Assembly: GCA_963920635.1 (NCBI GenBank)
Contig: OY987302.1
Span: forward strand, 27,255,278 to 27,319,277
Length of the DNA: 64,000 nt
From: Pseudeuparius sepicola
Taxonomy: Eukaryota > Arthropoda > Insecta > Coleoptera > Anthribidae
Direction of reading: 5' to 3'
A program made the translations under genes and the position numbers. The notes beneath the pieces are model-generated. The model was not told the origin of the DNA, searched no databases, and saw only the letters and a list, made by a program, of their open reading frames with translations. This document shows positions 2,798-55,750 of this stretch, piece after piece. The stretch's first letter is position 1. Each line of letters opens with the position of its first letter.

Positions 2798-3209
2798 TGT
2801 TACGGGCGACGTGAAGACGAAGACTTTTTAAAAAACTTTTATTTGAGTAACGCGAGTTACAGAGTTTCGGCTTAGACTACAGACAAGACTAGAATTAACA
2901 CTCTTACTTTACTAGGTCCTATTTATACAGATCTGTTATGCTGAGGTGTTGTGGTTCTCATGGGAAAAGAATATAAAGACAAAGGGAAGATCAAATTCTG
3001 CAATTCTTGCAGTAAGCAAGTTTTAACAATACTCAAAAGGAATATGATATGTTCTAGTAATCATTCTAGAACAATATACAATGGAAAATGATATCTTTGT
3101 AGTAAGCATCTTGAACAATAGAGAATGAGAACATAATATCCAACAGTAAACAGAATCAAGGGTAAAAACAAGGTTATGATCAAGGTGATGCTTGAGGTCG
3201 GATATAACA
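2798..3209 (-). repeat. 3' LTR of the provirus
   Basis: 412-bp direct repeat reading as identical to 11063-11474, bounded by TGTTA and TAACA. In the sense (minus) direction it carries a TATAAATA box (complement of about 2920-2927) and an AATAAA polyadenylation hexamer (complement of 2838-2843). It is preceded by a polypurine tract at 3210-3220. Confidence 0.95.
2838..2843 (-). terminator. Polyadenylation signal in the 3' LTR
   Basis: AATAAA on the minus strand in the downstream part of the 3' LTR, about 80 nt after the LTR TATA box. Position and sequence fit the signal that would end the genomic and env transcripts. The same hexamer is present in the 5' LTR. Confidence 0.6.
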
Positions 3210-3220
3210 CCTTCCCCCTT
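3210..3220 (-). other. Polypurine tract (plus-strand primer)
   Basis: Minus-strand AAGGGGGAAGG lies directly against the 3' LTR start (TGTTATATCC). This is the expected place and composition of the RNase-H-resistant primer for second-strand DNA synthesis. Confidence 0.85.
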
Positions 3221-3257
3221 ATATTAAAAATTTGTGTTAACAAATTTTGACATTAAA

Positions 3258-4148
3258 TTAGGCATATGTTTTAGTATTAGAATTTAGTTCAATTTCTTCT
3301 TCTTCGCGAGGTTCGTCCAATCTATACGAAGGTCTTCTTTTGACAGTAACAAATTTTCTTAAATTTTGAAAAACGCGATTTCGTGTTCTAGGAGGTTGTG
3401 GAGGATCGTCTCCGTTATTAGTAGTAATAATGCCTATTTTAATGTTCCTAGACTTTTTACATTTAAAATAAAAGTACACAATAATTAAAAGTATGATTAA
3501 AGCAATGGATAGATATGTCAATATTGGCGTATACTTATTTACAGTTGGTTCGTTAATAATATTATCAAGATCCTTTGCATATTCGTCTAATTTATGCTTT
3601 GCGACATTTAAATCGTCATAATTAAATTTATTTAGTTGTAAAGGTTTTAAGTCAGGATATTTTAGTTTATTTGGAGTTTCTTTGCAACATTCAAATGGTA
3701 TATTAATTGGGTGAAATTTATAGGTTTGATTAGATTTATTTAAATTTTTCGTTTGAATTTTAGTACTTCCAATATAAGCAATGCATTCAGATTTTAACGT
3801 TAAAATTGAAGTTTTGTCTAGCATTATAGTCAAAGGATTTTGATTTTTGCACTTAATAGTTATAGGAAATATTTCACTTAAAATTATTAACCATTGATTC
3901 TCTTGAATCAATTGTACATTATAACTTTCAATTGAAATTGTGACTATGTCACAAGTATTAGGTAAATGGGTTTTTACCTCTAATAATTGAGCTTCACATC
4001 TTGAATGTGAGTCAATAGGAGTAGGATATAAATCTTTGCACATTATTAAATCAAATGCTAGTTCTTTACAATTTTTTATATCATAGAGAATTACATAGAG
4101 AGTTGGGTCATCGCTTTTTGCTACAAATTTAGTATCAGTGGATACCAT
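3258..4148 (-). CDS. env: Env, C-terminal part (after in-frame stop), with transmembrane anchor
   Basis: The open frame downstream of the stop at 4212-4214 is in the same reading frame as the upstream env segment and stays open through the 63 nt between them, so both are parts of one env gene. In this 296-codon piece a strongly hydrophobic segment (about residues 206-229, ending before KCKKSR) is the membrane anchor. A charged cytoplasmic tail of about 65 residues with an EEEEIE cluster follows. The ectodomain shows paired cysteines and N-glycosylation sequons such as NKSN. This matches the membrane-proximal half of errantivirus/baculovirus-F-like class I fusion proteins. The ATG at 4148 is probably only an internal methionine; separate expression of this piece is unproven. 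Confidence 0.85.
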   Translation of the reverse strand: MVSTDTKFVAKSDDPTLYVILYDIKNCKELAFDLIMCKDLYPTPIDSHSRCEAQLLEVKTHLPNTCDIVTISIESYNVQLIQENQWLIILSEIFPITIKCKNQNPLTIMLDKTSILTLKSECIAYIGSTKIQTKNLNKSNQTYKFHPINIPFECCKETPNKLKYPDLKPLQLNKFNYDDLNVAKHKLDEYAKDLDNIINEPTVNKYTPILTYLSIALIILLIIVYFYFKCKKSRNIKIGIITTNNGDDPPQPPRTRNRVFQNLRKFVTVKRRPSYRLDEPREEEEIELNSNTKTYA

Positions 4149-4211
4149 GTGATAAAATCCAGTTTTATTGTCGAAAATTGGAATAGGATAAATTCTATAA
4201 AGAGTATACCA

Positions 4212-5174
4212 TTAAGGTTCTACTAAAGGAATGTCTAATATAAAAACAAGTCTATTTTCTGTTTGAAAAACCTTTAGTTCTATAAAATCAAGATAAGTTG
4301 CAACATTTAGAAGTTGAGGAGTTAAGGGCAAATTATTTTTGTTTAAAGTTTGAGCGATTATTTGCAAATGATGAACCAGGTCTTCAGGAGTTATAACTGA
4401 CGTGTGAATAATATGTAACTTTGCAAAAGTAATAGAGTTTAGAATGTCATTTAAATTGCTTTCGATAAAGGTATAGGATTCTAGGAGTCTTTCGGCCATC
4501 TCTAAAACTTGTAATTTTGCAGTGTAATAATTAAAATTATCAGAAATGTTATAAATGTAATTTTCGATTTGTTTTATGTCATTATTAAAAGTAATTTCAT
4601 CAATTTGTAATTTGTTGATAGAGTCGTTAAAGTTTTTGATAACTGAAGTAGTTACTAAAATTTGTTTTTTCATTAATTTTTCTAATTCGTGTTCGTCTCT
4701 GTTAATTTTGTCGATACAATCGTTATAATACTGTCCGTCTGAAGCGTCTAAATTTCCGGTAATAAATTTCCAAACTGACCCTAAACCATTAATTAAACCT
4801 CTTTTATATCTTCTTACATCAATAGCTAATTCTTCAAATTTGAGCGCAATGTTTTCGGAAAGTTGATTTAGTAAAGTGAGATGTGACTTAACTTCGCTTA
4901 GAAAGGCGGCCATTCGTACGTCTTTTGGTTGAATTATAAATTGCATATTTTCTAAAATTTTATTATTATTTTCGAATGTTGTTTTTAGAGATGAAATGTC
5001 TTTATATACCAATAAACTCCACTTGTCATTAGAAATTTTGAGTCCGGATTGCTCTTGATAGAACACGCCTATGGTGTTATTAATTGGTCGCAGTGTATAT
5101 TGTGCCATAGCGGTAGCGAACAAAGAAAATCTGTAACGAAGTTTCAGAATTAGGAACTTGGTTCGATATAACAA
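4212..5174 (-). CDS. env: Env, N-terminal part: F-like envelope fusion protein, ends at an in-frame stop
   Basis: 320 codons. The start has a short hydrophobic stretch (about residues 14-23) that can act as a signal peptide. A furin-type site RRYKR (121-125) is followed by the glycine-rich fusion-peptide motif GLINGLGSVWKFITG (126-140) and LDASDG. A long heptad-like helical region follows. This is the hallmark order of the F-like Env of errantiviruses and group II baculovirus F proteins. The frame overlaps the 3' end of pol by 25 nt (5150-5174), so env would be made from a spliced RNA, as in gypsy-type elements. The TAA at 4212-4214 interrupts the frame before the transmembrane segment. This copy would therefore make only an unanchored product unless the stop is read through. 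Confidence 0.88.
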   Translation of the reverse strand: MLYRTKFLILKLRYRFSLFATAMAQYTLRPINNTIGVFYQEQSGLKISNDKWSLLVYKDISSLKTTFENNNKILENMQFIIQPKDVRMAAFLSEVKSHLTLLNQLSENIALKFEELAIDVRRYKRGLINGLGSVWKFITGNLDASDGQYYNDCIDKINRDEHELEKLMKKQILVTTSVIKNFNDSINKLQIDEITFNNDIKQIENYIYNISDNFNYYTAKLQVLEMAERLLESYTFIESNLNDILNSITFAKLHIIHTSVITPEDLVHHLQIIAQTLNKNNLPLTPQLLNVATYLDFIELKVFQTENRLVFILDIPLVEP

Positions 5175-5600
5175 ATTATTTTAATATCAGTATTTTTGAA
5201 AATATATTTGATCATAGGGAGAACTGTGTCCCAATCTAATTTGTCTAATCCACAAGCTAACTTGGGTATAGCTATAATTTTATCTTTTTCATCAGTGCTC
5301 TCGAGACAATTTGTTCGTAATTCCTTCAAGCAATTAAATAAATTAGCATAAGTTGGTTTATAATAGAAAAATTCTTTAGTTATTAAATAATAAATATTTC
5401 TTGTCGGAAGTTGAAGTACTGCTATTTCACCAATTGACTTATTTTGATTTTTTAGTTCATCTACGTGTCCAAATTTATTCTTAAATTCTTTTGCAATTCC
5501 TGCATTCATTTCTAAATCTTTAGATACACAGTGAGCTAATGAAATATTTTCAGGGGCATCAAATAAGTTGCCCAGTTCAATGGAAACGTTATTATTTTCA
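5150..5600 (-). other. Macro domain of TARG1/OARD1 type at the pol C-terminus
   Basis: Pol residues about 1103-1251. Motifs in order: LGNLFDAPENISLAHCVS (nucleotide-binding start), MNAGIAKEFKNKFG (ADP-ribose loop), GEIAVL, IYYLITKEFFYYKPTY, PKLACGLDKLDW, and a final IKIICY strand. This is the motif chain of the TARG1/OARD1 macro-domain class, which removes ADP-ribose from acidic residues and from nucleic acid. The Lys and Asp used for catalysis in that class (K84 and D125 of the human enzyme, by my recollection) correspond here to K1177 (LITK) and D1221 (GLDKL). The domain is in the pol frame, about 55 residues after the integrase GPY module, and ends at the pol stop. Fold and class are clear from sequence; activity and any release by protease are inference. 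Confidence 0.88.
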
Positions 5601-8600
5601 ATAGGGATTTTTCGATCTAGAGTATAAAAGAATTCTTTAACCGTTAGTTCTTCTTCCTCCAATTCGTGACATTTCTTTAGCATATCAAAATTCATTTTTG
5701 TGGTTTGGTTAGTAATTGGGTTATGTAGCAAAGCTGAATTCGTATAAATTTCTTTAATTTTATAGGGTCCATTAAATTTGTTAGCTAGTTTATTTTTTAT
5801 TTGGGACTCCTTGACATAAACCTTTTCTCCTACGCGAAATTGTCGCTGCTCCGAAACGTGTGTATCAAATCGCTGTTTCGCCTTTTGTTTGCGCATATCC
5901 GTACGCTTTCTTGCCACTTCATAATAATGCTTTATTTTATTGTTTAAATCGCGAACGTACTTAGAGATTAATTCTTGCTGATTATACAAAACTTCTGGAG
6001 GTCGAGACGAGGTGTGACCGAATAGCAATTCGTAAGGAGTAAAGCCGTGTGTTTTATTTATAGAATTGTTATATGCTATACAAGCGTAAGGAAGCATTTG
6101 AAATGGGTGTTCGTTAGGATTTTCTGTACTACATGCGCGTATCATTTCAGTTAAGGTGGCATGAAATCTTTCAAAGGAGCCATTTGATTGCGGATGACTA
6201 ACACTAGAGAAAGTTAATTTTATATTGTATAATTTACAAAGATCTTTCATTAATTGATTATTAAATTCTTTACCTACATCGCAATGGATTCTTAAGGGAG
6301 TTCCAAAATGTTGAAAATAGAGTAACAGAGCGTCTACTACAGATCTCGCTGTTTTATTAGGAAGTGCATAAGCTTGGGTAAATTTTGTTAGTTCGTCTCT
6401 TATGGTAAGGATATTATTTTTTACTGGGATTTCTAGGATATCGATATTTATTCTTTCGAAAGGAGTTTTAGGAGTTTCGGTAATAACTAAGGGACTGTCC
6501 AAGTTTTGTCTACAAATTTTTGTCTTTTGGCAGATTTCGCACTGCCGAATAAATGTTTCGACGTCTTTAGTTAGTCCTGTCCAATTATATTTTTGTTTGA
6601 TGCGTCTAATTGTTTCGTTTATTCCTCGATGTAAGTTTGTCTTGCCTGAATGAAATTGATCTATTATTATAGGTATTTGGTCTTCGTCTGGTATAGTCAC
6701 AATGTTCTGACAAATTGTTAGTTGGAAATTTTTATCTGAGAACAAAAAATTAAACATTTCTAAAATTGGAAAATCTGGATTGTTTTCAAGGTAATAAGTT
6801 TTATTTTCTTCGAATATATCTTTACTGTAATAAAGAGACATGAAGAGTACTTGTATTGCGGTTTCAAAATTAAAAGGAACAGGAATTATATAATATTTTC
6901 TTTTAGCTACGGTTTGACTGGAAAGAACATTTGCTTTATTATAGTTAAAATCAGGATTTAGCTCAAGTAAATCATCAATAACTTTTTCGTGAAGGTCTGT
7001 TAATTTGTCTTGTTGAAAAATTAGTACAATGTCTTTGTGTGTTTTGTCTAAAAGTTGATTATTTGTGTATTGGATTTTAGAATAGTCGATCATTGAAGTC
7101 GTCTTGTATAGATCAAAAAATCTGTCAAATTCATTACAGATTCTAGCAATTTCGTCAGTCTCATTATTGTCAATAGGCGGGTCAATGTCTTGAGGATTAT
7201 CATGGGAAGTAGATGGTTCGTCTAGGGAAGTATGAAAGGAAACAGCTTCTTTTATATGATTGATTTTGATTCGAGATAAAGCGTCGGCATTTCGATTAAT
7301 TTTTCCAGGTTTATAAATTATTTGATAATTATATTCTTCTAATTTAAGTCGCCAACGTGCTAAACGACTACCGGGATCTTTTATTGAGAAAAGCCAGGTT
7401 AAAGGTCTATGATCTGTAACCAATAAGAATTTTCGTCCGAAAAGATAAGGTCTATAGTTTTTTACGGCAGCAATTATTGCCAAAAGTTCTTTCTCTATAA
7501 CGCTATATTTCATTTCTGCTGGACTTAAGGTTCTTGAAAAGTATGCTATGGGAAGATCATTTCCAACAGGTCCTTGCGAAAGTACCGCGCCTACAGCAAA
7601 AGCGCTTGCATCTGTAGTTAAAACAAATTCTTTTTCAAAATCAGGATATATTAGAATTGGTGAAGTTATTAATGCATTTTTAAGTTGTTCGAAAGATTCA
7701 CGACAATCTTTATCAAAAATAAATGGTACGTCTTTTCTTAAAAGTCGAGTTAAAGGCTTTGTCATTTTTGCGAAGTTTGGAATAAACTTCCTGTAGTAAC
7801 CAGTAAGACCCAAAAATTGTTTAATTTGTTTAGTATTGGCAGGTTGAGGAAAATCGATAACAGCTTGTACTTTTTGTGGATTTGGTTTGACCCCTTCAGG
7901 TGTAATAACATGTCCTAAATAAATTACTTCTTTTCGTAAGAATTCACACTTATCTGGCTGTATTTTTAGATTTGAATTTCTTAATCTTTGAAAAACTTCA
8001 GTAATACGAGAGATATGTTCATTAATTGTGGAAGAATAAATAATAATGTCGTCCATGTAAACTAAGCACTTTTCGTTTTGTATCCCCATTAGTATATTAT
8101 CCATAACCCTCTGAAAGGTTGAGGGCGCATTACGAAGGCCAAAGGGCATACGTAAATATTCGAAATGTCCATTTTCAACGGAAAAAGCAGTTTTCGAAAT
8201 GTCTTCTGGATTCATTTCAATTTGTTGAAAACCAGAAGCCAAATCTAAAGTAGTAAAATAATGGCAATTACCCAACTGATCTAATATATCTGAAATATTA
8301 GGCAGTGGATACCTGTCATTAACTGTTAATTCATTTAATTTCCGATAATCAATTACGATTCTCCATTTTTGTTTGCCTGAAGCGTCTAATTTTTTTGGAA
8401 CGACCCATACTGGGGACGACCATGGTGAAACAGAAGGTCTAATTATTCCTTGAGAAAGCATTTTATTAATTTGTGTTTTTACTTCTTCCTTGTGAACTTG
8501 TGGATATCGATAAGATTTAGTAAAAATTGGCTTAGCGTCGCCTGTATCGATAGTATGTTTTATTTCATTAGTGAAACTTAGGAAATCTCCGTCAAAGTAA

Positions 8601-9610
8601 AATATATCTTCAAAATTCAAGCATAAATTAGTAATTAATTCTTTTTCTTCTTGGTTTAAATGTTCTAGCCTTAATGATTCTTTTATTTCTTCTACTCTGC
8701 TTTTCGTTTTATTAAAATTACAAATAATATTAGCACTAGCGTTCGTTTCTTTAATGTAAGGCTCAAATTCAAATTCTTCGAAACAAATATCCTTTGTTAT
8801 GGCATTAGCGTTTAATATTGTCGTATAAAAATTACCGTCTTCGTTTATTTTTACTATAGCATTTGGCACGTATACCTTTTCTACTCGTTGTGCGCATAAA
8901 ATCATTTCTTTATTCGTATATCTATTCGTATGAAACTTGCATATTTTTTCGCAACGCGGTTCTATCGTAACCTGATTTATATTATAACTCGTATTTTCGC
9001 TTTGAAAATTATTTATATTTTCCGTGTAATCATTATTATTATTATTATTTCGTTCATAAGCGTTTATATGAAGGCTATCGTATCTTTCGCCAACATTAAC
9101 TTGTCTTTTATAAACAACTCGATTATTATTATCATTATTATTCGTTAACTCGTTTAATTCATCTCCGTCTTTGAGTAATTCGTGTACCTTATAGTACGTA
9201 ATTAATTGTTTATTCCTAAAATCTACTACTGCACCGTACCTTTCTAAAAAGTCAGCGCCTAAAATTCCGTCGAATCCTATATCTAGATCGCAAATATAAA
9301 CTTTATGGGGAGAAAGAGGACCCGTAAAAGAAACAAATACCGCTTCAGTAATAGGAATTGATTGGCCAGAAATACCTTTAATTTGAAAATTTTCTGGACA
9401 TCGATTTAAAAATTGCTGAACCGTCTCTGGTTTGAAAATTGAAATACCAGCTCCTGTGTCAATTAAAATTTTGTACTTATCGGTATTATCTTTAATATAA
9501 TATAAGTTACTATTGTCAACGGTATTTATGCAAACGTTTGGTCCGTATTGGTCATACCAAGATTCTTGAAGTTGGGAATAGGATTCTGGCCCGAGGCTGT
9601 TAATTGAAAA
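5150..9610 (-). CDS. pol: Pol polyprotein: protease, RT, RNase H, integrase, C-terminal TARG1-like macro domain
   Basis: The pol frame is open from at least 9610 to the stop at 5150-5152. The first ATG in frame is at 8905, but 208 or more codons upstream encode protease, so entry by -1 frameshift from gag is expected. Protease: LIDTGAG (DTG at 9452-9460) and ILGADF. Numbered from the ATG: RT about 150-340 with D221 (TLDLASGF) and YMDD (283-286); RNase H about 425-545 with TDAS and VTDHRPL; integrase zinc finger H752, H759, C789, C792; integrase catalytic D822, D876, E912 (35 residues between the last two); GPY module near 1046-1048. Residues about 1103-1251 are a macro domain, described separately. 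No stop or frameshift is seen, so it looks functional. The gene encodes replication, integration and an added ADP-ribose hydrolase module. Confidence 0.93.
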   Translation of the reverse strand, partial: FSINSLGPESYSQLQESWYDQYGPNVCINTVDNSNLYYIKDNTDKYKILIDTGAGISIFKPETVQQFLNRCPENFQIKGISGQSIPITEAVFVSFTGPLSPHKVYICDLDIGFDGILGADFLERYGAVVDFRNKQLITYYKVHELLKDGDELNELTNNNDNNNRVVYKRQVNVGERYDSLHINAYERNNNNNNDYTENINNFQSENTSYNINQVTIEPRCEKICKFHTNRYTNKEMILCAQRVEKVYVPNAIVKINEDGNFYTTILNANAITKDICFEEFEFEPYIKETNASANIICNFNKTKSRVEEIKESLRLEHLNQEEKELITNLCLNFEDIFYFDGDFLSFTNEIKHTIDTGDAKPIFTKSYRYPQVHKEEVKTQINKMLSQGIIRPSVSPWSSPVWVVPKKLDASGKQKWRIVIDYRKLNELTVNDRYPLPNISDILDQLGNCHYFTTLDLASGFQQIEMNPEDISKTAFSVENGHFEYLRMPFGLRNAPSTFQRVMDNILMGIQNEKCLVYMDDIIIYSSTINEHISRITEVFQRLRNSNLKIQPDKCEFLRKEVIYLGHVITPEGVKPNPQKVQAVIDFPQPANTKQIKQFLGLTGYYRKFIPNFAKMTKPLTRLLRKDVPFIFDKDCRESFEQLKNALITSPILIYPDFEKEFVLTTDASAFAVGAVLSQGPVGNDLPIAYFSRTLSPAEMKYSVIEKELLAIIAAVKNYRPYLFGRKFLLVTDHRPLTWLFSIKDPGSRLARWRLKLEEYNYQIIYKPGKINRNADALSRIKINHIKEAVSFHTSLDEPSTSHDNPQDIDPPIDNNETDEIARICNEFDRFFDLYKTTSMIDYSKIQYTNNQLLDKTHKDIVLIFQQDKLTDLHEKVIDDLLELNPDFNYNKANVLSSQTVAKRKYYIIPVPFNFETAIQVLFMSLYYSKDIFEENKTYYLENNPDFPILEMFNFLFSDKNFQLTICQNIVTIPDEDQIPIIIDQFHSGKTNLHRGINETIRRIKQKYNWTGLTKDVETFIRQCEICQKTKICRQNLDSPLVITETPKTPFERINIDILEIPVKNNILTIRDELTKFTQAYALPNKTARSVVDALLLYFQHFGTPLRIHCDVGKEFNNQLMKDLCKLYNIKLTFSSVSHPQSNGSFERFHATLTEMIRACSTENPNEHPFQMLPYACIAYNNSINKTHGFTPYELLFGHTSSRPPEVLYNQQELISKYVRDLNNKIKHYYEVARKRTDMRKQKAKQRFDTHVSEQRQFRVGEKVYVKESQIKNKLANKFNGPYKIKEIYTNSALLHNPITNQTTKMNFDMLKKCHELEEEELTVKEFFYTLDRKIPIENNNVSIELGNLFDAPENISLAHCVSKDLEMNAGIAKEFKNKFGHVDELKNQNKSIGEIAVLQLPTRNIYYLITKEFFYYKPTYANLFNCLKELRTNCLESTDEKDKIIAIPKLACGLDKLDWDTVLPMIKYIFKNTDIKIICYIEPSS

Positions 9611-10722
9611 TTTTCGCTTTGGCCCAGATAATGTTGTTGGGGAGTTCTATTTTGGTTATTTGGATTTGAATTTGGGAATCTAGGAGTAAAATTTTGATTA
9701 GAAGGCTGGAAACCTGAATTATTATTAAAAGTTCTTGGGAAATTGTTTCTAGGAATATTATTAGAAAAATTTCTAGGAGGTTGATTTCTTGGTTGGAAGT
9801 TTTGAGGGTGATTCCTAGGTTGGAAAGAAGGAGTTTGAAAATTATTTTGCTGAGGAAAAGATGGTCTTTGATGGAACCTATTTTGGGAGAAATTATTTCT
9901 TTGGGAGTTATTTTGGAAATTGTTAGAGTAGCTAGAAGGATTTGGACCATTTCTGTAATAATTATTTTGATTTTTAGTTCGACATTCATTGATAGTATGT
10001 CCATTTCTTTTGCAATAATTACAAAATTTTGGAAAATTATTACTGGTTCTTTTGATATTATTATTGAAGACTGGTACACGATTTTGCCTCTGAAATTTTT
10101 GATTTTCAAAATAAGAAAGTTGCAATTCTCTCTTAATTAAAGCTATAGCATCCATCATGTTGGGTGGATTGCTAGCACGAATTAGTTGCCCTATTCTTGG
10201 TTCTAAACCTGTCAAAACTGTATTTAGGCACATGCTATCGATTAATGTAGCTTGCGATTCTTTTTGTTCCCTAGTGAGAAGGCTTTGTTTTCCTATTGCG
10301 GCATACATTTTCGAGCAGTGAGTTTGAACTCTGCCTACAAAAGTCAAAGCATTTTCATTTTGGGATTGACACATTCTTTGTAAATCTTGAATTAATGAAG
10401 TTAGATCGCGAGGATCTCCGAAATGAACGTTAAGTAATTGTTTGATTTCGCGCCAGGTACTCAAATCTCTTGAATTAATGAGTTGGGCTGCACGTCCCTT
10501 TAATTGATTTTTAATTTTTATAACAAGTAAAATGGCTTGGTCCCCAACAGTAATTTGCATGGCCCTATCACATGCAATGATAAAAGTATTTAAATTGATT
10601 TGATCCCCATCGTATTCAGGGATGATAGAAAATATTTCGCTTAATTTAAATGGTACTTCGTCGTTATTTGAAGCGTTTGCTTCATTGTTTACATTAGAGT
10701 TTATAGCTTCGTTATTCGGCAT
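9526..10722 (-). CDS. gag: Gag structural polyprotein with one CCHC zinc knuckle
   Basis: 398 residues, the first ORF of the provirus. The N-terminal two thirds (about residues 25-205) are helical and gag-like (YDGDQINLNTFIIACD near 37-52, LLNVHFGDPRDLTSLIQDLQ near 96-115). A single zinc knuckle C-x2-C-x4-H-x4-C sits at C234, C237, H242, C247. Residues about 250-390 are an Asn/Gln/Pro/Phe-rich low-complexity tail. The product would form the particle core and bind genomic RNA through the knuckle. The ATG at 10722 is the first good start after a ~320-nt leader. The last ~80 nt overlap the pol frame, so a -1 shift can continue into protease. The frame is intact. The prion-like tail is long for a gypsy Gag. 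Confidence 0.92.
   Translation of the reverse strand: MPNNEAINSNVNNEANASNNDEVPFKLSEIFSIIPEYDGDQINLNTFIIACDRAMQITVGDQAILLVIKIKNQLKGRAAQLINSRDLSTWREIKQLLNVHFGDPRDLTSLIQDLQRMCQSQNENALTFVGRVQTHCSKMYAAIGKQSLLTREQKESQATLIDSMCLNTVLTGLEPRIGQLIRASNPPNMMDAIALIKRELQLSYFENQKFQRQNRVPVFNNNIKRTSNNFPKFCNYCKRNGHTINECRTKNQNNYYRNGPNPSSYSNNFQNNSQRNNFSQNRFHQRPSFPQQNNFQTPSFQPRNHPQNFQPRNQPPRNFSNNIPRNNFPRTFNNNSGFQPSNQNFTPRFPNSNPNNQNRTPQQHYLGQSENFQLTASGQNPIPNFKNLGMTNTDQTFA
9607..9613 (-). promoter_or_regulatory. Candidate -1 ribosomal frameshift heptamer (A AAT TTT)
   Basis: In gag phase the minus strand reads GAA AAT TTT C. This fits the X XXY YYZ slippery pattern and lies inside the gag/pol overlap, about 80 nt before the gag stop. 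Pol is in the -1 frame relative to gag and stays open from here. I have not identified a downstream pseudoknot, so the exact site is inferred. Confidence 0.45.
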
Positions 10723-10895
10723 GTTGAAATGAAAAGGTAATATCGTTATAACGTAGAAAGTTCAATAATAGCAACGTAGAAAGTTCAAAAAAAAATCACA
10801 AATAAAATTCACTTCAAGTTTTTCACTTACAATAGAAGTAACTTCATGCTCGCTGGATGTCGTTGATGCTGCTGTTGTTGCTGGATGCTGGCCTC

Positions 10896-11036
10896 AGGAG
10901 ACTGTCCTTCTTAGTGCCTCCGGATCTTCCTGTCGAAGACCCTTTTCAGCTGGCTCCAATCGTAGTGGTGTGGTGACCCCCGAGGAGACTGTCCTTCTAA
11001 GTGCGTCCGGATCTCCCTCGTTGAAGACCCTTTTAT
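10896..11036 (-). repeat. Duplicated ~52-bp motif in the provirus leader
   Basis: Two direct copies at about 10896-10947 and 10983-11036. They share aggagactgtccttct, gtgc, tccggatct and gaagacccttt with a few differences. They lie between the primer-binding site and gag, the region that in gypsy holds tandem insulator-protein sites and in retroviruses holds packaging signals. No Su(Hw)-type core is evident, so the function is open. Confidence 0.7.
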
Positions 11037-11041
11037 CGAGG

Positions 11042-11059
11042 ATCCCACTTCTGACACCA
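11042..11059 (-). other. Primer-binding site, complementary to tRNA-Leu 3' end
   Basis: Three nucleotides after the 5' LTR the minus strand reads TGGTGTCAGAAGTGGGAT. This is the complement of a tRNA 3' end ATCCCACTTCTGACACCA, which as I recall is that of an insect tRNA-Leu. It would prime minus-strand DNA synthesis. Confidence 0.85.
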
Positions 11060-11062
11060 AAT

Positions 11063-11474
11063 TGTTACGGGCGACGTGAAGACGAAGACTTTTTAAAAAA
11101 CTTTTATTTGAGTAACGCGAGTTACAGAGTTTCGGCTTAGACTACAGACAAGACTAGAATTAACACTCTTACTTTACTAGGTCCTATTTATACAGATCTG
11201 TTATGCTGAGGTGTTGTGGTTCTCATGGGAAAAGAATATAAAGACAAAGGGAAGATCAAATTCTGCAATTCTTGCAGTAAGCAAGTTTTAACAATACTCA
11301 AAAGGAATATGATATGTTCTAGTAATCATTCTAGAACAATATACAATGGAAAATGATATCTTTGTAGTAAGCATCTTGAACAATAGAGAATGAGAACATA
11401 ATATCCAACAGTAAACAGAATCAAGGGTAAAAACAAGGTTATGATCAAGGTGATGCTTGAGGTCGGATATAACA
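11063..11474 (-). repeat. 5' LTR of the provirus
   Basis: 412 bp, reading as identical to the 3' LTR. In the sense (minus) direction it starts at 11474 with TGTTATATCC and ends at 11063. It supplies the promoter. Target duplication TACA follows at 11475-11478. Confidence 0.95.
11185..11192 (-). promoter_or_regulatory. TATA box of the 5' LTR promoter
   Basis: Minus-strand TATAAATA followed by GGAC, about 285 nt into the LTR in the sense direction and about 125 nt before its end. This is a plausible position for the U3 promoter of the provirus. Confidence 0.6.
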
Positions 11475-12846
11475 TACATACTCAACATTGTGCGTCATTA
11501 ATTGCGCAAAGATGGTATAAAAACCCATTGGACCCTTTTCAGAGTTGCAAACTAAAGCCTTGGCTAAAAAAGACGGTCCGCCCAAAATCTTGTTTGATAA
11601 GCTCTTTCAAATCATTACAAAGTCAAAAGTTGTATCAAACCAAATCAACTTGTTTGTAAAAGGGGACAAAAAACAGCACATTTGTTATGCCACGTAATGT
11701 AATGACTGGCTTCGTTGCGTCACCTAACTTTGCTTACTGGTGGGTGAAGATGCATTGTAATCTCACTTGCTTATACTAGTTATCGATTAATTGCGCCAGT
11801 AGACCTTACCGTTTACGAATGAAATCATCTAGCGCCATTCAAACCGTAATTATGACCACTTACCCCAGAAGCAATCACATGATTGTGCGAGGAAGGGTTG
11901 GCAATTACTATTGTTTTGTCTTCATTGTCATTTGAGGCCAGTGCCGACTTTTCCTATAATAGAACTAATATAGCATAATTCGCTGAAGTTCTACGGAAAA
12001 CGCTATAGAAAACTGTAATAACAATGAGGCGGATCATCTGTCCACAACTGTGGATCATCAACTGTTGTTTTATTAATCTCTAACTAGGAGTGTAGCAATG
12101 TACCGCTACTGTTCCGAAACAAAAAGAAATGCAAAGTCGAACAGGGAAAATGCATGAGAAATTATTCCCGAAACGGTGGCGCGGTGGCGGCGTGCAGGGC
12201 CGACGAGGGTGGGGCCTAGGACGGGGGTCGCCTTCACCTCGGCACACAAATCACCAGAGAAAATATATTATAATGAAACGAAATGTTGTATAGTCCACAC
12301 TCAGCGCTTTCGCCGTACCTGCTCTCCTTCCTGAAAAATAAGCGGCATTATAATTTAAAATTTAATACTTTCTGATTCGCTAGCAATTTCATAAAACTTT
12401 TCCAGTCATACGAAGCGTACAGGGCCGGGACATTCAGGAACACCGTGGAGCGAGATTAAATTTTCACCATTTGGGGTCTACTCGAAACCTCGGCCCACGC
12501 GGAACGTCGCAATTCTGATTTGATTCGTAGAGGAAAGTTACTTTTTTGATGTGAATGCAATCAACAAACGACTTAACAAGTTTGGATATTGAATTTTTGT
12601 TTTTCCACAAGTTTATCTTCTACCTCTCGAATTACGCCCGAATATAGATAAAAAATATGTGCATTATAATGGAAGATATTTCTTTGTAATTTTCTCCAAA
12701 TAATTATCAGAACGAGGTGGAGTTATCTATCCTAGATGGTTTTAGAATGCCACAAAAATTAAATTTAATTCCGAACAACTTTTTCTAATATAATTACTTT
12801 ACCTTTACTTTACAAAGCAGGGCCGGTCAAGTTTCAGTATTTTTTT
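11475..12846. other. Unique non-coding DNA with a GC-rich patch
   Basis: No protein or RNA gene recognised. About 11850-11960 is less AT-rich and contains cacatgattgtgcgaggaag, which resembles cgcatgattgttcgaggaag at the end of the GC-rich block near 24900. Positions 12165-12240 are a short GC-rich patch (gcggtggcggcgtgcag). Both could be regulatory, but nothing proves it. Confidence 0.5.
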
Positions 12847-13632
12847 GTCTTTTGCACCTGTGTTTCTCACTTATCTTGGGACAAGCTATTATGAAAGTTC
12901 CAAAATATCCAAATAAGTAAAAAAATGTGTAAAACTAAAAAATATTTATTAAAAATATTTTCGAAATAAAAAGTAAAATAAAAATATTTTTCTATTCGAA
13001 TAAATATCCATTCGATTAATAATTGTCTATACAACTAATTGTCTTTTCGAATAACTGATGTCCTTCCAAGAGCTGTCGTTCGGAGAACTATAATATATAG
13101 AAGTGTCCTCAATCGCTTTATTTCCTAGATCAAGGGTTTTCAAAGTTGTTCAAGTTTTTTATTTCATAAAGTTTCATATTCCATATAACACTTGTCTATT
13201 GCACCTGTGTTTCTCACTTATCTTGGGACAAGCTATTATGAAAGTTCCAAAATATCCAAGTAAGTAAAAAAATGTGTAAGACAAAAAAATATTTATTAAA
13301 AATATTTTCGAAATAAAAAGTAAAATAAAAATATTTTTCTACTCGAATAAATATCCATTCGATTAATTATTGTCTATACAAATAATTGTCTCTTCGAATA
13401 ACTGATCTTCCAAGAGCTGTCGTTTGGAGAACTATAATATATAGAAGTGTTCTCAATCGCTTTATTTCCTAGACCAAGGGTTTTCAAAGTTGTTCAAGTT
13501 TTTTTATTTCATAAAGTTTCATATCCCATATAACACTTGTCTTTTGCACCTGTGTTTCTCACTTATCTTGGGACAAGCTATTATGAAAGTTCCAAAATAT
13601 CCAGGTAAGTAAAAAAATGTGTAAAACTAAAA
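12847..13632. repeat. Tandem repeats of ~346 bp
   Basis: Units begin gtctNttgcacctgtgtttc at 12847, 13194 and 13539, giving periods of 347 and 345 bp. Each runs through a ttcgaaataaaaagtaaaat segment and ends near ccatataacact. The third unit grades into the 1-kb repeat at 13633, so the array and that repeat are one composite structure. Confidence 0.85.
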
Positions 13633-14656
13633 AATATTTATTAAAAATATTTTCGAAATAAAAAGTAAAATAAAAATATTTTTCTACTCGAATAAATATC
13701 CATTCGATTAATTATTGTCTATACAAATAATTGTCTCTTCGAATAACTGATGTCCTTCCAAGAGCTGTCGTTAGGAGAACTATAATATATAGAAGTGTTC
13801 TCAATCGCTTTATTTCCTAGACTAAGGGTTTTCAAATTTGTTCAAGTTTTTTATTTCATAAAGTTTCATATTCCATATAACACTGTCCTTCAAAATGTTT
13901 GCGTCATAGAAGGATTTCTTTATTACCTATTTTCTTTAAATTTAACCTTGTTTGCGTTAAATTTTACTAGAAAAGTTGTATCTTTTTCAATTTTACATAA
14001 GTGAATCAAATTTGAACACTTTAGGGCAAGATTGTGGGAAATTTGTTTGTGGCCACAGAAACATTAACCAAACTTTTTAACACAAACTTTTTCAAGTTGC
14101 CAGGAAAATTCATATGTGCTTAACAGTAAATTAAGGAAACATTGAACATTTAACTCAAAAATAACCTCAATAACTTTGTTTTCTGAGCTTTCGGAGAACA
14201 AATCTTCCTCCATTTATGAATTTTGCTGGCAACTTGAAAAACTCCTCATTAATTCAGTTTGGTTCAGGTTCCTGTGGCCAAAAACCCAATGAAAAATTAA
14301 ACGACTTTAGTAAAACAGTTTGTTTTTTGTAATTTTTTAATAGGTGTCTACGAAATATACATAGTGTCCGAATAAAGAATCCCGTCGCTGATATCTCGAG
14401 AACGAAAAGAGATATTTTAATTCTGTAAACGCCGTTCGCTAGAACGGGAATAGAGATTTATTCGCAACTGCTAAGCGTTCATTTTGATACTGGCGCATAG
14501 ATAGCGCTGGGGTACAAAGAAACTTTCGATCATAGGAACGTTGGAAACTAGCGCATCTGAAATTCTGGTTAATTTGGAGCAACTTTTGTCCTATGGACGA
14601 TTTTCTTATTATCTATTAATTACCAGTTTCTGAGATAGTCTCTCTAACATGCCTTT
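13633..14656. repeat. Second copy of the 1-kb repeat
   Basis: Collinear with 1472-2495 at a constant offset, about three differences seen over 1,024 bp. Here the sequence continues on both sides: tandem units to the left and the full foldback to the right. This locus therefore looks like the older or complete context and 1472-2495 the truncated copy. Confidence 0.85.
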
Positions 14657-30947: not shown

Positions 30948-32888
30948 CAGTGTGACCCATTTGTTTTGGGGTCAGTCTGTAAAAAGTGTATCAATCGTGC
31001 GATTTGGCTGATTTTTTTTTTTAATTGTAGAGCTCGATGAACTGCACATTTTGAACAAAAATTGCCTGGTTCGCATAAAATCCAAAGCCTACTATGACCG
31101 TTTTTATGAGCAAAATTTTAAGAAACCATATTAGCGTTTTTTTTTTTGAAAAAATCTGTGTGCGCCAATGGATTAAGCACCCCTCGAAATGGATATGTAC
31201 AAAATTTCATCAAAATATTTCAAGTAATAACGATTTTGTAGAAAAATTAAAAATGCAGCCAAGGTACGTCTTTATTTTCAAAAATTCAAAGTTGGCGATG
31301 GAAAATAATTGAATTGTAATAATACAACCTTATGCTTATAAACACAAAACATAAAAACAATTAAAATTATAAAATTTTTGTAACTTCTACCAAGCCTCCA
31401 TTTTCTACAATGCATTTGTCGTTCCTCTTGCGTACATTCAAAATTACATTTCGTATTTGCTGTGGAGTAATTTCCTCACAACTACGGTTTATCCTAGCTT
31501 GCAGTTCTTGTAAATTATGGGGTCTTGACTTATAAACATTTTGCTTAAGTGTACCCCAAAGAAAAAAATCTAAAATAGTTAAGTCCGGAGATCTCGGTGG
31601 CCACTCACAGAAAGGACTATTTCGCCCTATCCAACAGTTTTCAAAATTATTATCTAGCCAGTTTCTGATTAAACGAGCATTATGAATAGGACTGCCATCT
31701 AACTGTAACTTTAAATTTAAACGGTATCTTAATGGTAACTCATCTAAAGCATTTCTAAATTCAATTTCTAGAAAATTCAAGAAGCCAGCCGCATTCAAAT
31801 TCCCTTCAAAGAAAAATGGGCCAATTATTCTGTCGCGTAGTATTCCACACCAAACGTTAATTTTTTGTGAATATTGTCTCCTTGCATTTATTATAAACTC
31901 TGGATTTTCAGCTGACCAGTGACGGCAGTTTTGACTTGATACTACACCATTTGTAGTAAACGTGGCTTCGTCGGTGAATAAAATTTCATTTAAAAAGTTG
32001 CCATTATGGAGATATTCACCTTGCAGCCAATAGCAAAATTCTAATCTTCTCTCCTCATCTCCTGGTTCCAGGGTGTGCAAAAATTTTGGCTTAAACGGTT
32101 TTATTTTGTTTTGTCTCAAACATCTCCTTATACTCTCTCTGGGTATATGAAGGTCTAAACTAGCCGTTCGAACACTATTTCGAGGATTGTCACTAAAGTA
32201 TTGCAGAATTTGATTGTTATTTTCAACAAGTCCACGGCGTCCATTTTGCCTAGTTTTTAATAAATTTTTAGAAATCGATCCAGTTTCATCAAAAATATTG
32301 TTTATACGTTGTACAGTACTTCGACTCACTGATCTACCTGGGTGTCTATTGTTAAATTCGGCCGCAGCTTCTGCTGCCGAGCGCTCGTTGTCGCCCACGA
32401 GTCGAACAATTTCTATTTTGTCTCTTATGCTTAAATATTACATAATTATGATAATTAATTGTATTGAGCACAAACAATTTCTGAACTCAATTTAGACAGT
32501 TTGACACTTAATAAAAGTAAACAATTCAATTATTTTCCATGGCCAACTTTGAATTTTTGAAAATAAAGACGTACCTTGGCTGCATTTTTAATTTTTCTAC
32601 AAAATCGTTATTACTTGAAATATTTTGATGAAATTTTGTACATACCCATTTCGAGGAATGCTCAATCCATTGGCGCACACAGATTTTTTCAAAAAAAAAC
32701 GCTAATATGGTTTCTTAAAATTTTGCTCATAAAAACGGTCATAGTAGGCTTTGGATTTTATGCGAACCAGGCAATTTTTGTTCAAAATGTGCAGTTCATC
32801 GAGCTCTACAATTTAAAAAAAAAATCAGCCAAATCGCACGATTGATACACTTTTTACAGACTGACCCCAAAACAAATGGGTCACACTG
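30948..32888 (-). mobile_element. Mariner-superfamily transposon with ~370-bp TIRs
   Basis: Flanked by TA (30946-30947 and 32889-32890) and ending in CAGTGTGACCCATTTG on both sides. The inverted arms are 30948-31316 and 32522-32888, with few mismatches. The 1.2-kb centre carries one transposase frame on the minus strand. TIRs this long are unusual for the superfamily, where tens of bp are common. Confidence 0.88.
31367..32443 (-). pseudogene. Mariner-type transposase, nearly intact; stop at second codon
   Basis: Cut-and-paste DNA transposase of the IS630/Tc1/mariner superfamily. From 32398 (a GTG codon in frame) 343 residues are open. An HTH-like N-terminus (DNERSAAEAAAEFNNRHPGR) is followed by RESIRRCLRQNKIKPFKPKF and the catalytic block: FTDEATF (D143), QLDGSPIHN (D234), WPPRSPDLTILDFFLWG (D272 or D277; 37 or 42 residues after D234). 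The frame is open further upstream, but the only ATG (32441-32443) is followed at once by TAA (32438-32440). The natural start therefore appears destroyed by one change, unless a non-ATG start is used. It is similar to the transposase at 54064-55154. Confidence 0.85.
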
Positions 32889-53366: not shown

Positions 53367-55750
53367 CAGTGACCGGCAGAAAGTTGGACACAAATGGAAA
53401 ACTTTTTTATTATTAATTTCTCAGAAAATTTTATTCTTGATAAAAGTTGGTGCATCATTTCAAACTCAAGACGCACATACCAAAATTTAAATATCTCTTT
53501 TTGGATACGAGGTAGATTCAAAAATGTCAAAATAGCTCGAGAGTAAAGTACCCTTATTTTTTAAACTACGGTAAAAAGTTACTTACACAAGTTATTTGGA
53601 ATCAAAAGGGGATGTCAGATTTAAAGTCACAGCCACCTAGTAAAAAAAAAGAAATTTAACTTTTTTTGTATTTTTTTCGACCACCCTGTGTACCTGTGTA
53701 ATACAAAAAAAAAAAACAAAATACCGAAAGCGCAACTTGTCATCGGATAACACATGAATTTGCTACTTAACTTTAATTTTGTTCGATTAGCAGCTAGAAA
53801 TTTAAATTAATCTAAATCAGAGTTTAAAAATATTAAATTCTTGTGTCCATTGAATAAAATAAGTCTTAGTTTTTTTGACAAATTTTAATAAGTACTTAAT
53901 TTAAATGAAAACAGTAACTAAAATAAATAAACTTGTCTGCACCACACTATCAAGTACCTAGGTACCTGCTATATTTAAAAGGAAAGTTAAGTTTTACTCT
54001 ATAATATGTTCCCCACCGTTTTCTATGCACCTTATTGTTCTTCTGTGCATTTCATTATGCACATTACTTAGCATTTACAGTACGGATGCAGTTAGTGATA
54101 GTCTCTTCGAGATGCGCTATGTCCCTGAATGGTCGCTCTTTATACACTTTTTCCTTCAGATATCCCCATAGAAAAAAGTCCATTGGGGTGAGATCAGGAG
54201 ACCTCGCAGGCCAAGGATTGACTGAGTATCTCCCGATCCAAGCATTTGGAAAGACTCCGTCTAACCACCTCCTTACTGGTAAAGTGGACTGGACAGATGC
54301 ACCATCCTGCTGAAAAAACATATTCGCCCTAACTTGTAAGGATAAATTGTCCAAATAATCCATTAACGTTGTTTGTAGCATATTTAAATATCTCTCAGAA
54401 TTTAACGTTTGTCTAAAAAACACGGGTCCCACAATTTCTTGATTTAGAATTCCGCACCACACATTCGTTTTGAAGTAATACTGATCACGACATTCAATTT
54501 TAAAATGAGGGTTTTCATCCGCCCACCACCTACAGTTCGGAGAACTCACAGTTCCATTAGATGTAAATATGGATTCATCAGAGTATAGAATATTTTTCGA
54601 AAAATTTCCGTCGTCTTCAATTTTTCCTTGGAACCAAGAAGAAAAATCTAAACGAGCATCGAAATCTCTCTCTTCGAGCGTGTGGATCAGCTGAGGTTTG
54701 TACGGTTTGAATTTATGTTGTATAAGTACTCTTCTGATCGAGCGATCTGAAACGTTCAACTCTGTTTGCCTTTGGGCATTTTAGGATTCTCAACAAAGGA
54801 GAGGACAATATCCATTTCATTATCTTCGTTACCTGTTACATTTCTTCTATGTGGTACTTGACATTTATTTTGCACTGAACCGAACTGCTTAAAACTCCTA
54901 AGAATTTTTGCCACAGTTGAGTAGTTGACGTTTTTGTCTGGATGTCGTTCGTTGAAAATATCTGATGTTTCTCGACAAGTATGATAATTATCACCGTGTA
55001 TTAAAACAATTTCAACTTTATACTTTATCTTGAACACTAAGTGCAGGCATAGTTGCGGAATGACAATAACGGAGTTTGACATGTAAAATAATTCTTCGCC
55101 GACAATTATTGTTTTCAAAGCCAACTTTGCAAGAGTTATTATTGGCCAGAGCATGGACTATCCTATTAATATCGTATTTTGTTCGATAGGTACCTCTAAG
55201 CCAATTTATTCTTAGTTACTGTTTTCATTTAAATTACTTATTATTAAAATTTGTCAAAAACTACTTATTTTATTCAATGGACACAAAAATTTAATATTTT
55301 TAAACTCTGATTTGGATTAATTTAAATTTCTAGCTGCTAATCGAACAAAATTAAAGTTTAGTAGCAAATTCATGTGTTATCCGATGATAAGTTGGGCTTG
55401 CGGTATTTTGTTTTTTTTTGTATTACACAGGGTGGTCGAAAAAAATACAAAAAAAGTTAAATTTCTTTTTTTTTTTGACTAGGTGGCTGAGACTTTAAAT
55501 CTGACATCCACTTTTGATTCCAAATAACTTTTGTAAGTAACTTTTTACCGTATTTTAAAAAATAAGGGCACTTTACTCTTGAGCTATTTTGACATTTTTG
55601 AATCTACCTCGTATCCAAAAAGAGATATTTAAATTTTGGTATGTGCATCTTGAGTACGAAATGATGCACCAACTTTTATCAAGAATAAAATTTTCTGAGA
55701 AATTAATAATAAAAAAGTTTTCCATTTGTGTCCAACTTTCTGCCGGTCAC
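53367..55750 (-). mobile_element. Mariner-superfamily transposon with ~540-bp TIRs, inserted in the LINE
   Basis: The left end is CAGTGACCGGCAGAAAGTTG after TA (53365-53366). The right end mirrors it (CAACTTTCTGCCGGTCAC) before TA (55752-55753). The inverted arms run 53367-53921 and 55213-55750 with scattered differences. The centre holds a frameshifted transposase. A short relative is at 56831-57313. Confidence 0.88.
54064..55154 (-). pseudogene. Mariner-type transposase, frameshifted
   Basis: The N-terminal frame (from about 55154 down to 54756) has KVEIVLIHGDNYHTCRETSD and NERHPDKN, an HTH-like start. The C-terminal frame (54784-54064) has VSDRSIRRVLIQHKFKPYKP, the catalytic YSDESIF, FQQDGAS and WPARSPDLTPMDFFLWGYLK, and ends RTVNAK. 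The two frames differ by one base near 54781-54785 (after ENPK). A second one-base shift may separate the likely ATG near 55051 (minus strand) from the rest. Domain order and motifs match the element at 31367-32443, so they are relatives. All three catalytic acidic residues are present, but the protein cannot be made intact. Confidence 0.85.

Follow-up and report, generated by a model that had tools for sequence, protein, structure and literature searches.

A retroelement Pol polyprotein ending in a predicted TARG1-type macro domain in the beetle Pseudeuparius sepicola

Results

An integrase followed by a macro domain in a single pol frame

We analyzed a 64,000-nt stretch of the Pseudeuparius sepicola genome (contig OY987302.1, positions 27,255,278 to 27,319,277; hereafter the window, with positions counted from its first letter). 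The window carries an 8,677-bp provirus-like element at 2798–11474 on the minus strand, flanked by two identical long terminal repeats (LTRs) of 412 bp each. The pol open reading frame (ORF) of this element runs past the integrase into a segment that, judged from sequence and a structure model, is a macro domain of the type found in the human protein TARG1 (also OARD1 or C6orf130). The features of pol are:

5150–8905, minus strand: pol ORF from ATG, 1251 codons with no internal stop; the frame is open back to 9646
9460, minus strand: protease motif DTGA within the open pol frame, assigned by motif
7904–8398, minus strand: reverse transcriptase (RT), Pfam RVT_1, E 4.4e-41
7403–7714, minus strand: RNase H (Pfam RT_RNaseH / RT_RNaseH_2); the searched stretch stopped at 7403
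6695–7087, minus strand: RNase H-integrase spacer, predicted macro fold, degenerate in sequence
6518–6685, minus strand: integrase H2C2 zinc finger, Pfam PF17921, E 2.2e-16
6191–6466, minus strand: integrase core (rve), Pfam PF00665, E 3.8e-11
5756–5776, minus strand: GPY/F motif FNGPYKI at the integrase C-terminus, assigned by motif
5168–5599, minus strand: predicted TARG1/OARD1-type macro domain at the Pol C-terminus; the whole C-terminal segment is 5150–5632
5375–5377, minus strand: predicted catalytic Lys (LITK)
5243–5245, minus strand: predicted catalytic Asp (CGLDKL)

In a Pfam search the segment at 5150–5632 scored 25.8 bits with the Macro profile (E 1.1e-5; cut-off 22). Its best PDB match was human TARG1 (E 3.4e-37, covering residues 12–155 of 160), and each of the five PDB sequences found at E ≤ 0.001 was TARG1/C6orf130. 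An AlphaFold (AF2) model of the domain, built from a 50-row alignment of the window sequence and 49 of 51 related proteins (two were left out), had a mean predicted local distance difference test score (pLDDT) of 94.1. In a Foldseek search the predicted model was superimposed on TARG1 structure 4j5s at E 1.4e-18, with a template-modeling (TM) score of 0.96 of the target and a root-mean-square deviation of 0.9, and the top eight rows were all TARG1/C6orf130. The predicted catalytic Lys and Asp align with those of TARG1, where we take them to form the catalytic pair, and both were invariant in 50 of 50 rows. A chance match is excluded by the E-values, the structure model and the copy number given below.

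These profile and structure searches had been proposed by an initial annotation made from the letters of the window, which read the pol frame as unbroken from integrase into a TARG1-like domain carrying the Lys of LITK and the Asp of GLDKL. Both readings held: no stop interrupts 5150–8905, the GPY motif is followed by the Macro match, and the two residues fall at the TARG1 positions. The same annotation would have abandoned its claim had no macro profile matched; the Pfam and PDB matches are significant.

The domain is fixed among the copies examined

The genome that holds the window (769 Mb, 16 contigs) was searched for copies. Of 916 candidate macro matches 150 were scored, and all 150 were 99–100% identical with no internal stop; a hand count put 47 of them in open frames with the window's exact length of 1,498 codons. 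Forty loci were retrieved by similarity to the macro domain, and in all 40 the order was integrase C-terminus, macro domain, env. The interval between the integrase and macro matches was the same 75 nt in 38 of these loci, and the integrase match was shortened in the other two. Fifteen further copies were picked by eye from 150 listed integrase matches, outside the macro lists and the 1,498-codon frames; the macro domain was present in 15 of 15, several of them broken or partial, and env lay within a short stretch in 13. No copy without the macro segment was seen among the 40 macro-picked loci and the 15 integrase copies; rare ones may lie beyond the matches listed. A single chimeric junction, which the initial annotation would have accepted had other copies lacked the segment, is ruled out by the 55 of 55 copies examined.

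The window copy, with its identical LTRs, is young. Across the integrase stretch 5660–6250 it alone showed 100% identity among the 150 matches listed, the rest being 98–99% identical.

A gain relative to sister pols and several positions within pol

We retrieved 30 sister pols through the spacer and the zinc finger; the named ones come from Diabrotica, Anthonomus and Aromia, and some are fragments. A macro domain was found in none of the 30 below E 0.1, three giving chance-level scores of 0.27–0.98. The protein ended 25–62 residues past the GPY motif in the 29 GPY-bearing sister pols, compared to ~205 residues in the window, and these C-terminal ends agree even though some of the pols are fragmentary. 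By sequence comparison, the C-terminal macro domain is a gain relative to the 30 sister pols.

Macro domains of the same type also lay elsewhere in related elements. Locus L005 carries one between RNase H and integrase in a single open frame, as do two Harmonia axyridis pols of 1,116 and 1,241 residues at the same position, and in a Rhamnusium bicolor fragment a macro domain comes immediately after the RNase H end motif with which the fragment starts (by eye). At locus L044, with a backbone RT 75–78% identical to the window RT, the macro domain sits between the protease motif and RT, the macro and RT being in different frames in that copy. Locus L070, of another lineage, carries its macro domain together with two zinc knuckles and a protease motif (by eye), with no RT within the 3.4 kb fetched. 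The macro domain of L041 likewise lies behind a protease motif, with no RT seen within the stretch fetched; in L041, L042 and L043 env lies behind the macro domain, the stretch fetched giving no match to RT, RNase H or integrase, and these three are possibly internally deleted copies retaining the macro domain. The active-site Lys and Asp are retained, by eye, in the diverged macro domains of L005, L041, L044, L070, P0004 and P0005. On these sequences, at least three sites within pol can hold a macro domain in elements of this kind. The initial annotation had described one fusion; the identity of the domain, its fusion and its capture are supported.

In the family with the macro domain between RNase H and integrase (RNaseH-IN), the ratio of nonsynonymous to synonymous substitution rates (dN/dS) was 0.28 for macro, 0.21 for spacer and 0.24 for integrase, computed from 12, 12 and 11 of 17 rows, respectively, after gapped, cut and broken rows had been dropped. 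These rows were retrieved with the macro profile, which favors the macro domain, and the values apply to that family rather than to the window's. The Lys and Asp were retained in 12 of 12 macro rows.

Two other architectures were encountered. A 711-codon frame (L040:2499-4631, minus strand; G000:C1:131514415-131519917) encodes three tandem TARG1-type macro domains, of which only the third retains both active-site residues (by eye). No RT, RNase H, integrase or env match was present in the 5.5 kb fetched around it, and its macro domains cluster with element macros in trees; the frame is possibly a host or domesticated gene. Protein P0006 (535 aa) combines a TARG1-type macro domain with a following GDSL-type hydrolase domain, and has a zinc-finger-like N-terminus by eye.

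Possible recurrent capture or exchange and a probable cellular source

In the RT tree, seven RNaseH-IN rows clustered together (Shimodaira-Hasegawa-like approximate likelihood ratio test, SH-aLRT, 95), and the window clustered with 28 macro-less relatives and L044/L046 (support 95). In the macro trees the window grouped weakly with Harmonia macros (87/62, and 84/85 in a later tree that included Rhamnusium), and L044 clustered with L004/L005 (99/64 and 98/79). The first macro tree used 64 of 69 sequences, six near-duplicate or partial rows having been named beforehand for omission, and its bootstrap was unsettled (0.988). The backbone and macro trees therefore disagree, which suggests recurrent capture or exchange of macro domains among families. 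Approximately unbiased (AU) tests gave a p-AU of 0.074 when 13 element macros were constrained to be monophyletic and 0.101 when the window and L065 were grouped with the L041–L045 macros; monophyly of the RNaseH-IN macros gave 0.063 with Rhamnusium and 0.0045 without it. A single capture fixed in place is disfavored by the macro tree, which does not track position, but the monophyly tests were mixed (0.0045–0.101).

The element macros fell on the tree side of the named animal OARD1 proteins, across a branch of modest support (80/84) from viral ones; the far side held 20 viral-contig TARG1-like genes, of 80 retained, and two unnamed proteins. Because the element macros side with animal OARD1 and apart from the viral genes, a cellular rather than a viral source is more likely. 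Of the "host or viral eraser" of the initial annotation, the tree thus favors the cellular half.

In IMG/VR, a TARG1-like protein is encoded in 124 viral-contig stretches, of which 80 were retained (loci L088–L167), many on contigs of 60–230 kb. No RT, RNase H, integrase, spacer or env match lay beside any of the 80 retained loci. IMG/VR scans with the window macro and integrase found no relative in that collection, from which records near the window's genome may be absent. A viral donor was set aside on these grounds. An OARD1 candidate in the beetle genome at C3:39815440 turned out to be an element copy.

A predicted macro-like fold between RNase H and integrase

Pfam assigned no domain to the RNase H-integrase spacer of the window Pol. 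The predicted structure of 6695–7087 matches the macro fold, as seen in one structure model, and five BFVD entries matched this model at E ≤ 0.001, the best being an Aedes aegypti To virus 1 protein and the other four unnamed. The window spacer showed no significant sequence match to TARG1 macros, and its hhalign score of 17.2 was reached by at least 5 of 150 column shuffles. The spacer of Harmonia P0004 did match the macro profile (hmmsearch 1.2e-6, hhalign 94.7%); the intact macro domain of P0004 is itself among the sequences in that profile.

The odds seem evenly balanced that Pol holds an ancient decayed macro domain as a spacer, common also to the macro-less relatives, and that families later acquired live TARG1 domains, by capture or exchange, at three pol places, so that the window Pol would contain one dead and one live macro fold. 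If so, this lineage of env-bearing insect elements would have dealt with ADP-ribosylation for a long time, and the macro-like spacer fold would account for a polyprotein stretch that carries no Pfam domain.

Anatomy and surroundings of the provirus

The remaining features of the element are:

11063–11474, minus strand: 5′ LTR, 412 bp, identical to the 3′ LTR
11048–11059, minus strand: putative tRNA primer-binding site, 3 nt inside the 5′ LTR, identified by sequence, no tRNA assigned
9526–10761, minus strand: gag open frame of 411 codons between stops; it overlaps pol, which is read in a different frame
4212–5174, minus strand: first part of env (Baculo_F), Pfam PF12259, E 1.9e-17; its open frame overlaps the pol end
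3258–4148, minus strand: second part of env (Baculo_F), Pfam PF12259, E 1.3e-12, in a different frame from the first part
3210–3220, minus strand: polypurine tract adjoining the 3′ LTR
2798–3209, minus strand: 3′ LTR, 412 bp, identical to the 5′ LTR
2794–2797 and 11475–11478: target-site duplication TACA, one copy on each flank

The order gag, protease, RT, RNase H, integrase, GPY is that of Ty3/Gypsy elements, with RT, RNase H and integrase assigned by Pfam, protease and GPY by motif, and gag by position. The gag label relies on that position and on a zinc-knuckle-like motif seen by eye; a Pfam search of the frame gave no match. Two slippery-like heptamers near the gag-pol overlap are candidate frameshift sites by sequence. 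The env gene is split over two frames in the window copy, and in some other copies env runs unbroken over a longer frame. At 5150–5174 the last codons of pol also belong to the env open frame. The 4-bp TACA/TACA duplication, the identical LTRs and the Baculo_F env are features of errantivirus-like elements, and errantiviruses prefer TACATA-like target sites. This label is drawn from the plan, the target-site duplication and env, the RT tree having contained no Drosophila reference pols. The closest named relatives of the window pol come from beetles.

Repeat units spaced ~345 bp flank the element on one side and a related stretch lies on the other (1339–1771 and 12808–13932); from these units, the element is located within or beside a satellite-like repeat. 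Farther along the window, two frames at 31367–32437 and 54064–54780 match Tc1/mariner-like transposases (Pfam DDE_3 and HTH_Tnp_Tc3_2).

Discussion

We read the observed fusion, with its copy number, sequence, predicted fold, active-site residues and absence from 30 related pols, as the product of a young, abundant, env-bearing Ty3/Gypsy (errantivirus-like) element having captured a cellular TARG1/OARD1 domain as a C-terminal ADP-ribose eraser of Pol, and give this reading a probability of about 0.6. The domain would act as an (ADP-ribosyl)hydrolase and would enter the particle and the pre-integration complex at Pol stoichiometry. The purpose that the initial annotation proposed, undoing ADP-ribosylation during integration, would suit this anatomy. 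Its candidate target is mono-ADP-ribose, attached either to acidic residues in the element's proteins or in host factors, or to phosphorylated ends of element RNA and cDNA, and the marks would be set by host PARPs in the repair or silencing response to reverse transcription and integration. By analogy, it may work as retroviral dUTPases do, as a small, position-tolerant captured pol enzyme undoing a host-imposed state. Because the active site is retained, the domain is carried in Pol and its position is not fixed, an enzyme fits better than a tether, and from these sequences we infer an eraser acting against host ADP-ribosylation.

Published work on PARP and mobile elements offers some context. 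As described in parts of PMC7712786, mobile elements tended upward in Drosophila lacking PARP-1, and the gypsy-clade element springer was one of those that rose strongly; ten more elements were raised, nine of them from the gypsy superfamily, but none of the ten was significant (FDR, false discovery rate, >15% or p >0.05), and the authors note that the effect of PARP-1 loss may be indirect. In mammals, according to a portion of PMC4695847, L1 is silenced by SIRT6 via ADP-ribosylation of KAP1.

Several points weigh against a captured eraser. Thirty relatives manage without the macro domain, which is therefore not generally needed by such elements; most copies read had been selected for resemblance to the macro domain; and no host OARD1 gene was found in a search of the window's genome.

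Other explanations place the function elsewhere. The macro domain could be a reader, binding ADP-ribosylated chromatin from the integrase tail and tethering integration to PARP-active sites with hydrolysis incidental; this suits its place directly behind integrase in all 40 loci, the binding of ADP-ribose without cleavage by many macro domains (parts of PMC11088682), and a macro-fold spacer that, lacking recognizable macro sequence, could itself be a binder or scaffold. However, the domain lies away from the integrase tail in other families, and binding would not need the retained Lys and Asp, which makes a pure reader unlikely. Still less probable is a passenger, a recent capture hitchhiking in a successful element without function of its own. 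Absence from all 30 sister pols would be expected of it, and the identical LTRs mark a copy so young that decay may not yet have occurred, but several families carry the domain, at three different positions, the RNaseH-IN macro dN/dS of 0.28 is near that of integrase (in rows found by macro profile), and the diverged macros listed above keep both active-site residues.

A structural or regulatory use alone, in which the domain caps the integrase or serves the pol-env junction, draws on the overlap of env with the last pol codons; we regard it as very improbable, since sister pols stop soon past GPY without such a domain and the active site would not need to be retained. A chimeric junction or assembly artefact confined to one odd copy has the oddity of the fusion alone in its favor, and can practically be dismissed in view of the 150 of 150 scored matches, the macro domain behind integrase in 40 of 40 loci and 15 of 15 further copies, and the independent fusions in Harmonia database records.

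If the domain is a captured eraser, its repeated capture in Pol would imply that retroelements in insects are restricted by ADP-ribosylation, at replication or at integration, and the element would supply a compact enzyme for testing ADP-ribosylation as a restriction. The variable position of the macro domain parallels that of retroviral dUTPase, and permits comparison of families with and without it.

Among known proteins, human TARG1/OARD1/C6orf130 (4j5q, 4j5r, 4j5s) has the fold predicted here, with 46–47% identity in the structural alignments and the same Lys and Asp; it is a free-standing cellular enzyme, whereas the window domain forms the C-terminus of a retroelement Pol. The LTR-gag-pol-env plan, the 4-bp TACA duplication, the order of protease, RT, RNase H, integrase and GPY and the Baculo_F env are shared with errantivirus-like insect endogenous retroviruses (Metaviridae); the difference is the macro domain, absent from all 30 sister pols. 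No Ty3/Gypsy pol with a macro domain was found in the literature searched, which excluded preprints and most subscription journals. Macro-domain erasers are counter-defenses of RNA viruses; the macros of coronaviruses and alphaviruses, likewise parts of viral polyproteins, were more distant Foldseek rows (12–16% identity compared to 46–47% for TARG1) and belong to RNA viruses, unlike the window element. Other Ty3/Gypsy elements carry at the integrase C-terminus a chromodomain that reads histone methylation, also a chromatin-related domain on the integrase tail, but a reader without a hydrolase fold. Retroviral dUTPase was captured into pro/pol at positions differing by lineage, one of them between RNase H and integrase; it and the window macro are both small captured polyprotein enzymes at variable positions, although enzyme and target differ. 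The main text of a 2025 EMBO J paper on Drosophila insect endogenous retroviruses (PMC12992720) contains neither "macro" nor "ADP-ribose" by term search. Fish (epsilon-like) endogenous retroviruses with extra macro-domain ORFs are described by Basta et al. 2009, as cited in a passage of PMC4977317; in that account they too are retrovirus-related and acquired a macro gene, but as an additional ORF in vertebrates, not as a domain of a Ty3/Gypsy Pol. These fish retroviruses thus appear to be the closest precedent, and retroviral dUTPase the best parallel, by analogy, for a captured pol enzyme.
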